Below are positions 16,827 to 31,226 of a stretch of DNA of 35,857 bases, piece by piece. How positions within the stretch are numbered: position 1 is the stretch's first letter; each line of letters begins with the position of its first letter. The notes below the pieces were generated by a model. The model did not search any database. It was not told the DNA's origin and saw only the letters and a program-made list of their open reading frames with translations. The DNA is taken from contig CANKVN010000015.1 in the NCBI GenBank assembly GCA_947487055.1, positions 1 through 35,857 of the forward strand, in the 5' to 3' direction. Both the position numbers and the translations under genes were made by a program. The stretch comes from Flavobacteriales bacterium. Its GTDB lineage: Bacteria; Bacteroidota; Bacteroidia; NS11-12g; UBA955.

Positions 16827-18365
16827 TCAGGCTAGTTGTTTCAACAATTCAGACATACCGGTTTCTTTGGTCAAGATATCCCGGAGTTCGGTAATTTTCA
16901 CACGGCGTTGTTCCATGGTATCGCGGTAGCGAATGGTGACATCTTCATTGGCCAGGCTTTCATGATCCACGGTAATGCAGAATGGCGTGCCAATGGCATC
17001 CATGCGGCGGTATCGCTTTCCGATGCTGTCTTTGTCTTCTATGTATAATTTAAAATCGAAACGCAGGTCGTTGTATATTTTCTCGGCCATTTCGGGCAAT
17101 CCATCTTTCTTCACCAAGGGCAAAATAGCGGCTTTCACAGGAGCCAGGGCAGGATGCAGTTTCAACACGGTTCGCACTTCGGAATCTACCTGCTCTTCTA
17201 CAAAAGCCGCGCATAGCGTTAGCAGGAACATGCGATCAAGTCCAATGCTGGTTTCTACCACATAGGGAATGTAGCTTTCGTTCGTTTCCGGATCGAAATA
17301 GCGGAGTTTTTTTCCGCTGAATTCCTCGTGTTTGCTAAGGTCAAAATCAGTGCGGCTGTGAATGCCCTCCACCTCTTTGAAACCGAATGGAAAATCAAAT
17401 TCAATATCCACGGCTGCATTGGCATAATGCGCCAGTTTCACATGGTCGTGGTATCGGTAACTGCTGCGGTCGGTTCCCAAAGCCAAATGCCATTTAAGGC
17501 GCTGTTCTTTCCAACGCTGATACCATTCCAGTTCGGTACCCGGTTTGCAAAAAAACTGCATTTCCATTTGTTCGAATTCTTTCATCCGCATGATGAACTG
17601 ACGCGCTACAATTTCATTGCGGAAGGCTTTACCGGTTTGGGCAATACCAAAGGGAATTTTGGCCCTACCGCTTTTTTGCACATTGAGAAAGTTGACGAAA
17701 ATACCCTGGGCAGTTTCCGGCCGCAGGTAGAGGTTGTCTTCGCCACTTTCCACAGCACTCATCTGGGTACTGTACATAAGGTTGAACTGACGTACATCGG
17801 TCCAGTTTTTGGAGCCGCTCACCGGGCACACGATGCCCAGTTCTTCAATCAGGCTCTTAATAAGCGCTAAGTTACCGGATTCCAGTCCTTCTTTGAGCGT
17901 AGCATCAATATGGGCAATGGCCGTTAGGTATTCAACCACGCGTGGGTTTGTGGCTCGGTACATTACCTCGTCGAAACTTTCGCCAAAGCGTGCGCGGGCT
18001 TTCTCTACTTCTTTATCGGCCTTGGCACGTAACTTTTCCTGGTGTTCTTCCAGCAACACATCAGCGCGGTATCTTTTTTTACTGTCTTTGTTGTCGATCA
18101 TGGGATCGCTGAACCCATCGACATGGCCGCTTGCCTTCCATATTTTTGGATGCATGAAGATTGCGGTATCAATTCCCAAAATATTGGTTTGCAGTTGGGT
18201 CATGGCTTTCCACCAGTATTGGCGGAGATTATTGCGCAATTCAACGCCATTTTGGCCATAGTCGTATACAGCAGCCAGTCCGTCATAGATCTCACTGGAA
18301 GGAAAAACAAATCCGTATTCCTTGCAATGGGAAACTACTTTTTTAAACAAATCCTCGTTATTCAT
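16827..18365 (-). CDS. glyS: Glycine--tRNA ligase (single-chain dimeric type)
   Basis: The ATG at 18365 gives 512 residues, the usual size of the alpha2-type GlyRS; an upstream ATG adds 7 residues. It charges tRNA-Gly. Class II features include [13 protein letters not shown] near the N-terminus, [38 protein letters not shown] and SIGLDRM, followed by a C-terminal anticodon-binding domain. Residues 85-155 hold a charged helical insertion typical of the family. TATCTTTG lies 8 bases upstream of the start. It is divergent from the transposase-like gene. Confidence 0.97.
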
Positions 18366-18373
18366 GGAAGCGG

Positions 18374-18381
18374 CAAAGATA
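18374..18381 (-). promoter_or_regulatory. Candidate -7 element of glyS-pgk (TATCTTTG)
   Basis: An exact TAnnTTTG match lies 8 bases upstream of the glyS ATG, which predicts a leader of only a few bases. Confidence 0.5.
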
Positions 18382-18406
18382 GGCAATACAGCAAGGAGGT
18401 AAAAGT

Positions 18407-18462: not shown

Positions 18463-19068
18463 ATGTTATTTATTATGCTATTTTTACCTGACACTGTTTA
18501 TCACATTTACAACCATGCCAACGGGCGTGACAATTTATTTGCTGAAAGCGAGAACTACCGGTATTTTCTTGAATTGTATGGAAAGCACATTGGACCGATA
18601 GCGGAGACGTATGCTTTTTGTTTGATGCCGAATCATTTCCATTTTTTACTTCGAACCCGTGGGTTCGAAGACCTTCCAGGTTTAAAAAACCTGGAAGGTC
18701 TTGGCGCAGAAGGCGCCAAGATAAAAGAACGATTCTTCAGCCAGCAGTTTTCCAACTTCTTCAACGCCTACAGCAAGGCATTCAACAAAAAATATAACCG
18801 CAGAGGCTCGCTTTTTCAAAAGAATGTCAGAAGAAAACCCATCACCACCGAATCATATTTTCTAAGGTTATTCGCATATATCCACCAAAACCCCGTACGA
18901 CACGGATTTACCCCCCACATTGATGAGTGGCCTGCAAGTTCTTACCGAATGTATTTCAACCAGAATCCATTTCCATGGTTAAAAACGGAAACAATGGAAG
19001 ACCAATTGAAAAGTGCTGAAAAATTCCGCATTCTGCACCAGCCTAATCCATTAAGAAAAGCAATTTAA
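18463..19068 (+). CDS. REP-associated tyrosine transposase-like protein (Y1/HUH family)
   Basis: The 201-residue protein opens with LPDTVYHIYNHANGRDNLF and carries the metal-binding HUH motif as PNHFHFLL (His58, His60). NAYSKAFNKKYNRRGSLFQ follows, with the likely catalytic tyrosine (Tyr103 or nearby). It ends with YIHQNPVRHGF. These are features of single-copy RAYT proteins, which nick single-stranded DNA at REP palindromes and are not flanked by IS ends. ATGs at 18463 and 18475 are both possible. Residues 63-87 (RGFEDLPGLKNLEGLGAEGA and neighbours), between the HUH strand and the tyrosine helix, are encoded by three abutting palindromes. The stop overlaps that of convergent dcd by 4 bases, so there is no recent insertion scar. 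Confidence 0.9.
   Translation: MLFIMLFLPDTVYHIYNHANGRDNLFAESENYRYFLELYGKHIGPIAETYAFCLMPNHFHFLLRTRGFEDLPGLKNLEGLGAEGAKIKERFFSQQFSNFFNAYSKAFNKKYNRRGSLFQKNVRRKPITTESYFLRLFAYIHQNPVRHGFTPHIDEWPASSYRMYFNQNPFPWLKTETMEDQLKSAEKFRILHQPNPLRKAI
18649..18721. repeat. Three abutting perfect palindromes inside the transposase-like gene
   Basis: Palindrome 1 is CTTCGAACCC / GGGTTCGAAG (18649-18670, 2-base centre). Palindrome 2 has 16-base arms, AAGACCTTCCAGGTTT (18668-18683) and AAACCTGGAAGGTCTT (18687-18702), around AAA. Palindrome 3 is TCTTGGCGC / GCGCCAAGA (18699-18721, 5-base loop). Neighbouring palindromes share their edge bases, so the block is continuous. It keeps the reading frame. The arms resemble REP-type hairpins in size and arrangement. 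I saw no second copy in this window. Confidence 0.9.
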
Positions 19069-19601
19069 AACTGATTCTTCCACATCATGCTCTCGATAGG
19101 CTTATCGGGCTGACCTGAATATTTGGCGTTTTTCTTTTGGTTGTACTTAACCTCTATTTCACCGTCTACAGGGAAATAAATCAGCTGCCCAATCGGCATT
19201 CCACGATAAATTTTCACCGGTTGTTTAACACTGATTTCGAGGGTCCAGTTACCACAAAACCCAACATCCCCCTTACCTGCAGTGGCATGAATATCAATAC
19301 CCAGACGGCCGGTACTGCTCTTCCCTTCCAGGAAAGGAACATGGGCATGGGTTTCCGTGTATTCTTCTGTTACGCCCAAGTAAAACACATGCGGGTAAAG
19401 TACAAAACCTTCCTCCGGAATTTCGAAATACTCAATTTCATTGTGTTTTTTGGCATCCAAAATATGGTCCTTGTAAGTAGCCAGCCACTTGCCAAGATGA
19501 ACATCATAGCTATTGCTGCCCAAACACTGTCGATCGTAAGGCTCAATTTTAATGGTTCCAAGCTCTATTTCTTCGAGTATGCGCTTATCGGAAAGAATCA
19601 T
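19065..19601 (-). CDS. dcd: dCTP deaminase
   Basis: The protein is 178 residues, typical of Dcd. It deaminates dCTP to dUTP for thymidylate synthesis. Family features are the N-terminal MILSDKRIL, LGSNSYDVHLG, FLEGKSSTGRLGI with the catalytic arginine region, HATAGKGDVGF and WTLEISV with the catalytic glutamate, then PIGQLIYF. TAATTTCG lies only 4 bases upstream of the ATG. The gene is convergent with the transposase-like gene and overlaps it by 4 bases. Confidence 0.96.
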   Translation of the reverse strand: MILSDKRILEEIELGTIKIEPYDRQCLGSNSYDVHLGKWLATYKDHILDAKKHNEIEYFEIPEEGFVLYPHVFYLGVTEEYTETHAHVPFLEGKSSTGRLGIDIHATAGKGDVGFCGNWTLEISVKQPVKIYRGMPIGQLIYFPVDGEIEVKYNQKKNAKYSGQPDKPIESMMWKNQF

Positions 19602-27310: not shown

Positions 27311-27330
27311 ATCAGCAACAACATTCCACC

Positions 27331-27357
27331 AAAAAAGGCGCCATGGGCGCCTTTTTT
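27331..27357. terminator. Bidirectional Rho-independent terminator
   Basis: AAAAAAGGCGCC and GGCGCCTTTTTT form a perfect 12-bp stem with a 3-base ATG loop. A-run and T-run flanks on both sides let it serve the barrel-protein gene on the plus strand and folE on the minus strand. Confidence 0.88.
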
Positions 27358-27383
27358 GTTTTTACATGAATTCCTTAAAAAGG

Positions 27384-30353: not shown

Positions 30354-30380
30354 TAGCCGCTGCCCGATTTCGTCATTCAT

Positions 30381-30409
30381 AAAAAAAGCCGGATTAACCG
30401 GCTTTTTTT
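30381..30409. terminator. Bidirectional Rho-independent terminator
   Basis: AAAAAAAGCCGG and CCGGCTTTTTTT form a perfect 12-bp stem around a 5-base loop. It separates the aldolase gene (plus) from panB (minus), and overlaps the panB stop codon at 30408-30410. Confidence 0.87.
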
Positions 30410-31226
30410 AATATTGTTCCTTTTCGTTGGGAAAACTTCGGTTTTTAACGTCCAGCACATAATGCTCAACAGCACCGGTTATGATACCGTGTAAATCAGC
30501 ATATTTACGTAAAAAACGGGGTTTAAATTCAGTGTTGATACCCAGCATATCATGTAAAACAAGCACCTGCCCATCCACATCGGGTCCTGCTCCTATTCCG
30601 ATGACAGGGATGGTGAGGTTTTCGGCCACCCGCTTTGCCAGCGTGCTGGGGATTTTTTCCAATACCAATGCAAAACAACCGGCGGCTTCCAGTAATTTAC
30701 TGTCCTGAATGAGTTTTTCGGCTTCCTCCTCCTCTGTTGCCCGAACGGCGTAAGTGCCGAATTTATAAATGCTTTGGGGCGTGAGACCCAAATGACCCAT
30801 TACCGGAACACCTGCTGTAAGAATCCGTTTGATGCTTTCCAAAATTTCCTCTCCACCCTCCATTTTAACGGCATGGGCTCCACTTTCTTTCATGATACGA
30901 ATGGTGCTGGCCAACGCTTCCTTGCTGTTTCCCTGGTAGCTTCCAAATGGCAAATCAACCACAACGAGCGCACGATCAACACCCCGCACCACTGACGATG
31001 CGTGATAAATCATTTGATCCAGGGTAATGGGAAGGGTTGTTTCGTGTCCGGCCATCACATTACTGGCGCTGTCGCCCACCAAAATCACATCAATTCCTGC
31101 CTGGTCCACCAGCTTGGCCATCGAATAATCATAAGCCGTAAGCATGGATATCTTCTCCCCTTTCTGCTTCATCTCCAGCAGCACGTGGGTGGTTATTTTT
31201 TTAAATTCTTTCTTGTGTACGCTCAT
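30408..31226 (-). CDS. panB: 3-methyl-2-oxobutanoate hydroxymethyltransferase
   Basis: The 272-residue protein has normal length. It makes ketopantoate from 2-ketoisovalerate and methylene-tetrahydrofolate for pantothenate/CoA synthesis. Motifs include [30 protein letters not shown] with the metal-binding aspartate, [26 protein letters not shown] and [19 protein letters not shown]. It starts 3 bases after the upstream gene stop and is cotranscribed with it. The stop codon lies in the shared terminator hairpin. Confidence 0.97.

Follow-up and report, generated by a model that had tools for sequence, protein, structure and literature searches.

Perfect palindromes, one of them a candidate REPIN-type hairpin, within the coding sequence of a RAYT gene from a Flavobacteriales bacterium

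The locus described here bears on the role of REP-associated tyrosine transposases (RAYTs, or TnpA_REP proteins) in their hosts, and on the way in which they stay linked to their hairpins. The TnpA_REP of E. coli acts on REP DNA and requires a GTAG for activity (PMC8266576). REPINs, as described by Bertels and Rainey (2011, PMC3116915), are RAYT-linked and consist of two short inverted hairpin units that together form one long hairpin. REPs have also been reported within genes of other kinds, as have RAYTs whose flanking inverted repeats lack GTAG (Di Nocera et al. 2013, PMC3733652). The closest precedent for the present locus is a unique feature of TnpA_REP subclass 2.4, in which REPs are inserted in frame within the tnpA_REP genes themselves, generally between HuH and Y; according to Quentin et al. 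(2018, PMC6006769), who described it, the loop that receives them lies at the periphery and their presence there may be of little consequence. An earlier reading of this DNA from its letters (the sequence-only reading) implied that palindromes lying inside rather than beside a RAYT gene were a novelty, which that 2018 study had already anticipated.

We analysed a stretch of 35,857 nucleotides from a Flavobacteriales bacterium (the window), in which a RAYT gene contains three abutting palindromes. The features concerned, each with the evidence for it, are:

16827-18386, minus strand: glycyl-tRNA synthetase-like (glyS-like) gene, a conserved neighbour (named from sequence; synteny)
18463-19068, plus strand: gene for a RAYT / TnpA_REP-like HUH-Y1 protein of 201 aa (NCBIfam NF047646, fold match, profile match)
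18649-18670, no strand: left palindrome, 10-bp arms, loop of 2 (perfect inverted repeat)
18658-18732, plus strand: variable linker from the HUH strand to helix C (RGFEDLPGLKNLEGLGAEGAKIKER), the site of palindromes in homologues (protein alignment, structure model, 98-locus survey)
18668-18702, no strand: central palindrome, 16-bp arms, loop of 3, candidate REP/REPIN-type hairpin (perfect inverted repeat and family consensus)
18699-18721, no strand: right palindrome, 9-bp arms, loop of 5 (perfect inverted repeat)
19065-19601, minus strand: dCTP deaminase-like (dcd) gene, a conserved neighbour (named from sequence; synteny)

The RAYT has the HUH motif NHFH, a single catalytic tyrosine in a Y---NP context (YIHQNP) and an SSY tail, and the first two of these motifs are conserved in the protein alignment. 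It matches NCBIfam NF047646 (REP-associated tyrosine transposase) with an E value of 7.7e-15 at 55 bits, below the cut-off of 80, and its score for Pfam Y1_Tnp is also under the cut-off. The AlphaFold model (pLDDT 89) has the TnpA_REP fold, its best solved match being 4er8, the E. coli TnpA_REP with bound REP hairpin (E 3e-8), which a profile search matched too (E 8e-7). In the model the HUH strand spans residues 58-65 and helix C residues 82-110, and Tyr139 lies in a helix at 130-146. The gene is present once in the window genome, where it stands between the glyS-like and dcd-like genes, an order shared with G003, G004, G005 and G006. Comparison with the G003 orthologue gives dN 0.09 and dS 1.04, a ratio of about 0.09, and the protein is therefore under purifying selection. 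The RAYT of the window genome is a single-copy, vertically inherited and selected gene that keeps one hairpin inside it. A search of plasmids yielded nothing beyond distant RAYT-like proteins.

The coordinates and the open reading frame confirm what the sequence-only reading had described, namely three abutting perfect palindromes, with arms of 10, 16 and 9 bp, that share edge bases and leave the frame of the 201-aa ORF open. The central arms are the longest in the window. When synonymous codons were shuffled 300 times, preserving protein and codon use, the longest arms were of 4-11 bp, against the 16 observed; in sets of 2000, eight shuffles produced arms of at least 9 at the left site and none did so at the right. 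Chance, or a by-product of codon use, is thereby excluded as the origin of the three palindromes. The region has a very stable predicted RNA fold (z = -10), and a search of Rfam gave no match except a tRNA. The central palindrome is made up of two inverted 11-nt mini-hairpins (ACCT-TCC-AGGT and ACCT-GGA-AGGT) with 3-nt loops, set 7 nt apart, and this 11-7-11 layout makes it a small REPIN-like unit. About 24 residues are encoded by the palindromes, within a surface loop between the HUH strand and helix C. Their earlier placement between the HUH strand and the tyrosine helix was right in outline, and can be narrowed to the loop before helix 82-110, upstream of the Tyr139 helix. Likewise, the earlier figure of about 25 added residues holds for what is encoded but overstates the net insertion, because the linker is variable in palindrome-free relatives too, with a median of 22 aa there and of 27.5 aa where palindromes are present.

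We surveyed 98 homologous loci: the window gene, 17 loci in genomes related to its own, and the 80 top-ranking hits of a GTDB scan, these last nearly all from Bacteroidota with a few outliers such as Methylobacter. Among these nearest relatives, whose fractions are no estimate for all RAYTs and whose two sources may share genomes, 28 of 98 have linker palindromes with arms of at least 11, REP-like in 26 (L069 and L096 are not), and most of the 98 have no linker copy. Palindromes of any kind number 30 in 7.6 kb of linker and 3 in the remaining 52 kb of coding sequence; for long palindromes the density is 3.97 per kb of linker against 0.058 per kb elsewhere in the genes, a difference of about 69-fold. 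The linker palindromes often differ in sequence among loci (for example AAACTTTTCCAAAGTTTGGAACTTTGGAAAAGTTT and AAACCTTGGAGGTTTTCAAAACCTCCAAGGTTT), and the alignment of homologues that the sequence-only reading had proposed as a check shows different palindromes at the same linker point. When 106 odd-length family palindromes are aligned on their centres, the consensus is AAACCTTCCAGGTTTTAAAAACCTGGAAGGTTT, with which the central palindrome of the window agrees at 30 of 33 positions (counted by eye); 70 of the 106 contain the half-element hairpin with its 3-nt loop. The left and right palindromes fall outside the REP family and are not accounted for by it.

Where a linker palindrome could be read in more than one open frame, 17 of 21 use the same phase (p about 4e-4 with relatedness ignored), a bias indicative of shared descent or of a preferred peptide. 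Other phases, 0, 3 and 5 included, occur at L084, L102, L081, L089 and L013, and more than one insertion is therefore likely. We rejected a single ancestral insertion, given that the phases differ and that the tree needs 19 label changes, at least seven of them forced by well-supported branches; the 19 changes are not a count of gains, because decayed copies were scored as absent.

Palindromes also flank the gene at 59 of the 98 loci. Over the nine loci compared that have both, linker and flank palindromes of the same locus have a mean score of 13.3, against 6.8 between loci (0 of 20,000 permutations), and the two are clearly alike in eight of the nine, L062 being the exception. The linker copy is identical to the flank copy at L071 and L102, and a 27-nt core is common to both at L017. 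Flank copies accompany 9 of 24 genes with a linker copy and 50 of 72 without one, a difference with a raw p of 0.008 that is not significant on independent pairs, and we do not regard linker and flank copies as alternatives. In the G071 genome there are 19 sites at up to three mismatches, one inside the RAYT gene and two close beside it, and in the G060 genome there are four. Of the dispersed copies, those inspected (in G071, G074 and G060) are intergenic and lie mostly just after stop codons. Single copies confined to the linker are also found in G026, G014 and, murF coincidences aside, G004 and G006.

Two observations on individual loci may be added. A Methylobacter MAG (L071), gammaproteobacterial, has a RAYT of this lineage with two linker palindromes and the same palindrome upstream, which suggests horizontal transfer or a misbinned contig. 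At L043, L044, L048, L050, L051, L052 and L054, dispersed REP-like palindromes lie some 14-50 bases past stop codons, in terminator position, and might act as terminators.

Set against the described subclasses, the window lineage is most like TnpA_REP subclass 2.4 (Bertels group 4) in architecture: in-frame REP palindromes separate HuH from Y, in a variable insertion that follows strand 3 and precedes helix C, relatives have flanking REPs, Bacteroidetes are among the hosts, and NHFH conforms to the HuH motif NH[IFV]H. The remaining features of 2.4 depart from ours. Its WQ motif is LFQ in the window, with F in all 87 homologues in which the motif was found (of 98); its YIxNNP is YIHQNP in the window, YIHNNP occurring in 23 of 98 relatives; a serine tail motif, absent from 2.4, is present in 69 of 98 of the lineage; GT[AG]G feet, single or double, are lacking (GT[AG]G in 8 of 290 windows at the feet; background 154 of 4900); and the window genome is without dispersed copies. 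Judged by the features tabulated by Quentin et al. rather than by tree position, the two motif features and the REP foot set the lineage apart from subclass 2.4. Subclass 2.6 (Bertels group 5) is alike in being Bacteroidetes-centred, in its Y motif YIH[QN]NP and serine tail, and in flanking structures without GT[AG]G that have copies elsewhere in the genome. It differs in its NH[LIV]H and WQ, where the window lineage has NHFH and FQ, and its insertion lies between helix C and strand 4 with weak structures, whereas ours lies before helix C with perfect 16-bp arms; we rejected membership of 2.6 on motifs and insertion place.

The central palindrome recalls a REPIN in that two short inverted hairpin units form one long, RAYT-linked hairpin, but it is much smaller (about 33 nt, with a 7-nt spacer), has no GTAG, is of low copy number and has a copy inside the RAYT gene; the dispersed genomic population expected of REPINs is seen in G071 but not in the window genome, which has one copy. 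Rickettsia palindromic elements and REPs in coding genes (Di Nocera et al. 2013, PMC3733652) share with it the property of being palindromic repeats translated in frame, although Rickettsia-type elements occur across many unrelated genes, whereas the present intragenic copy belongs to the RAYT gene itself, the inspected dispersed copies of relatives being extragenic. The arrangement is a variant of a known one, in a branch and with a hairpin type that the 2018 description does not cover, and the comparison suggests that RAYTs other than those of the GT[AG]G type can also have in-gene REPs.

Within the window genome, a draft of 132 contigs at 95% completeness, no second copy of the left, central or right palindrome was found, half sites not being counted as copies; because repeats can be lost from a draft, copies at contig ends could be missing. 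Across 296 genomes of the phylum the exact central palindrome occurs in the window's own genome alone, the family varying in sequence; the left palindrome has no further copy across the eight genomes searched, and the right has none in the genus genomes searched. With no second full central copy and with unique side palindromes, a dispersed selfish repeat was rejected for the window genome. The sequence-only reading is partly supported. Its suggestion that the gene might carry its own DNA target has indirect support in the same palindrome in the linkers and flanks of relatives and, dispersed, in some of their genomes, and selfish repeats that tolerate translation are compatible with those copies too. 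The want of further genomic copies, which was to tell against that reading, holds for the window genome and not for relatives such as G071. Apparent second copies at three mismatches in G001, G002, G004 and G006 proved to be murF codons (LEGFKDLEG) and not repeats. The DNA for this conserved MurF peptide (L035, L036, L039, L040) resembles two direct half-repeats of the palindrome, a coincidence that sets a trap for pattern searches.

Among the genus relatives the hairpin occupies an orthologous position. In G003 the left palindrome is kept at 8 bp by a two-sided change, from TTCGAACC/GGTTCGAA to TTCGCACC/GGTGCGAA, and the central palindromes of G006 and G004 show two-sided changes relative to that of the window, their arms being 17 and 20 respectively. 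Such changes fill eight cells, a number that none of 500 shuffles reached; drawn from five related sequences, they are suggestive only. G003 also has mismatches in its central and right palindromes (one in the right), in a linker that is still similar and a gene that is intact and constrained. The case that was to tell against the sequence-only reading, a homologue with the same linker but no palindromic DNA, was encountered solely in this form, by decay. Of the 25 palindrome codons, 2 differ at the third position between the window and G003, compared with 65 of the 172 codons elsewhere (dS 0.11 and 1.53 respectively; Fisher p 0.003). Similarity along the locus peaks at 18680-18740 (97%), and the conserved block reaches about 18500-18785, past the palindromes, which makes recombination a possible alternative. 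The G005 orthologue (L014 / L148) is a RAYT pseudogene interrupted by four in-frame stops, and its palindromes have decayed, the right one with two mismatches. In G002 an unrelated gene, pirin-like by sequence, replaces the RAYT between the glyS-like and dcd-like genes (L144, about 650-1430).

We consider it probable that the central palindrome represents the REP/REPIN-type hairpin cognate to this RAYT, present as an in-frame copy in a permissive surface loop of the enzyme's own gene, on the strength of the palindromes in homologous linkers, the linker-flank match, the dispersal in G071 and the agreement with the family consensus. The wider picture that these comparisons would support is of a Bacteroidota-centred RAYT lineage in which each enzyme may be linked to its own hairpin of about 33 nt, which lies next to the gene, within the linker or at both sites, and in some genomes is dispersed between genes as well. 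By analogy with the E. coli TnpA_REP, the enzyme may recognise the hairpin as single-stranded DNA, for instance on the lagging strand, and may cut and rejoin it, its own GTAG-less one included. We infer that such nicking and rejoining would seed copies and could have brought about the arrival of the linker copy, which it could also replace or refresh, with upkeep of the perfect arms. Against a cognate copy stand its singleness in the window genome, the lack of a GT[AG]G foot and the side palindromes outside the REP family.

The in-gene copy could be an insert that is tolerated, a relic whose arms template switching has perfected, or a maintained cis-acting site; we give most weight to the cognate copy in a permissive loop, and to a maintained function a clearly smaller share. 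Under the last of these the RAYT would bind or nick its own gene or mRNA and so limit its expression, or the site would keep enzyme and substrate linked. The low dS of the palindrome codons relative to G003, the two-sided changes among orthologues, the one phase of 17 of 21 linker palindromes though other frames are open, and the scarcity of flank copies beside linker copies would all suit it; yet G003 has central and right mismatches despite its intact and constrained gene, the linker copy is missing from most homologues, the conserved block is larger than the palindromes, and the negative association of linker and flank is not significant on independent pairs. A maintained site is, in our estimation, possible but doubtful. 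We are inclined to doubt as well that the hairpin is a long-lived functional part of the lineage, a substrate or autoregulatory site held in one phase, with arms that change together and in step with flanking and dispersed REPs. The two-sided changes in the left and central palindromes can also be read as the work of replication template switching (quasi-palindrome correction), which would perfect the arms of an otherwise old neutral relic with no selection; abutting palindromes unrelated in sequence, and arms extended to 20 in G004 against the 17 of G006, agree with this. It leaves the linker-flank match within loci unaccounted for, and we entertain it tentatively, noting that it could act jointly with the presence of a cognate hairpin.

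Selection on the protein might instead have favoured the loop peptide (xLPGLKNLEGL-like), with the palindrome a by-product of codon choice. The peptide pattern does recur in one phase, and MurF of the genus has the similar stretch LEGFKDLEG, whose DNA resembles the repeat too; but synonymous shuffles never exceeded arms of 11, phases 0, 3 and 5 exist (L084, L102, L081, L089), and the same DNA is found outside genes, all of which leaves this explanation very improbable. The hairpins could also be intragenic mRNA structures, an attenuator or stability element unrelated to any RAYT substrate, as the very stable predicted fold would allow. We think this unlikely, since Rfam returned no match for such a structure and the same palindromes recur as dispersed repeats, both next to RAYT genes and elsewhere.

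A RAYT with a substrate-like hairpin in its own coding sequence, in a genome where no second copy was found, amounts to a minimal system. Recoding with synonymous codons would remove the hairpin and leave the protein unchanged, and hence cis function, self-nicking and autoregulation are cleanly testable in it. Elsewhere in the window, perfect palindromes with 13-bp arms and terminal T runs lie between genes at 30380-30410 and 27330-27358, and are probably intrinsic terminators.
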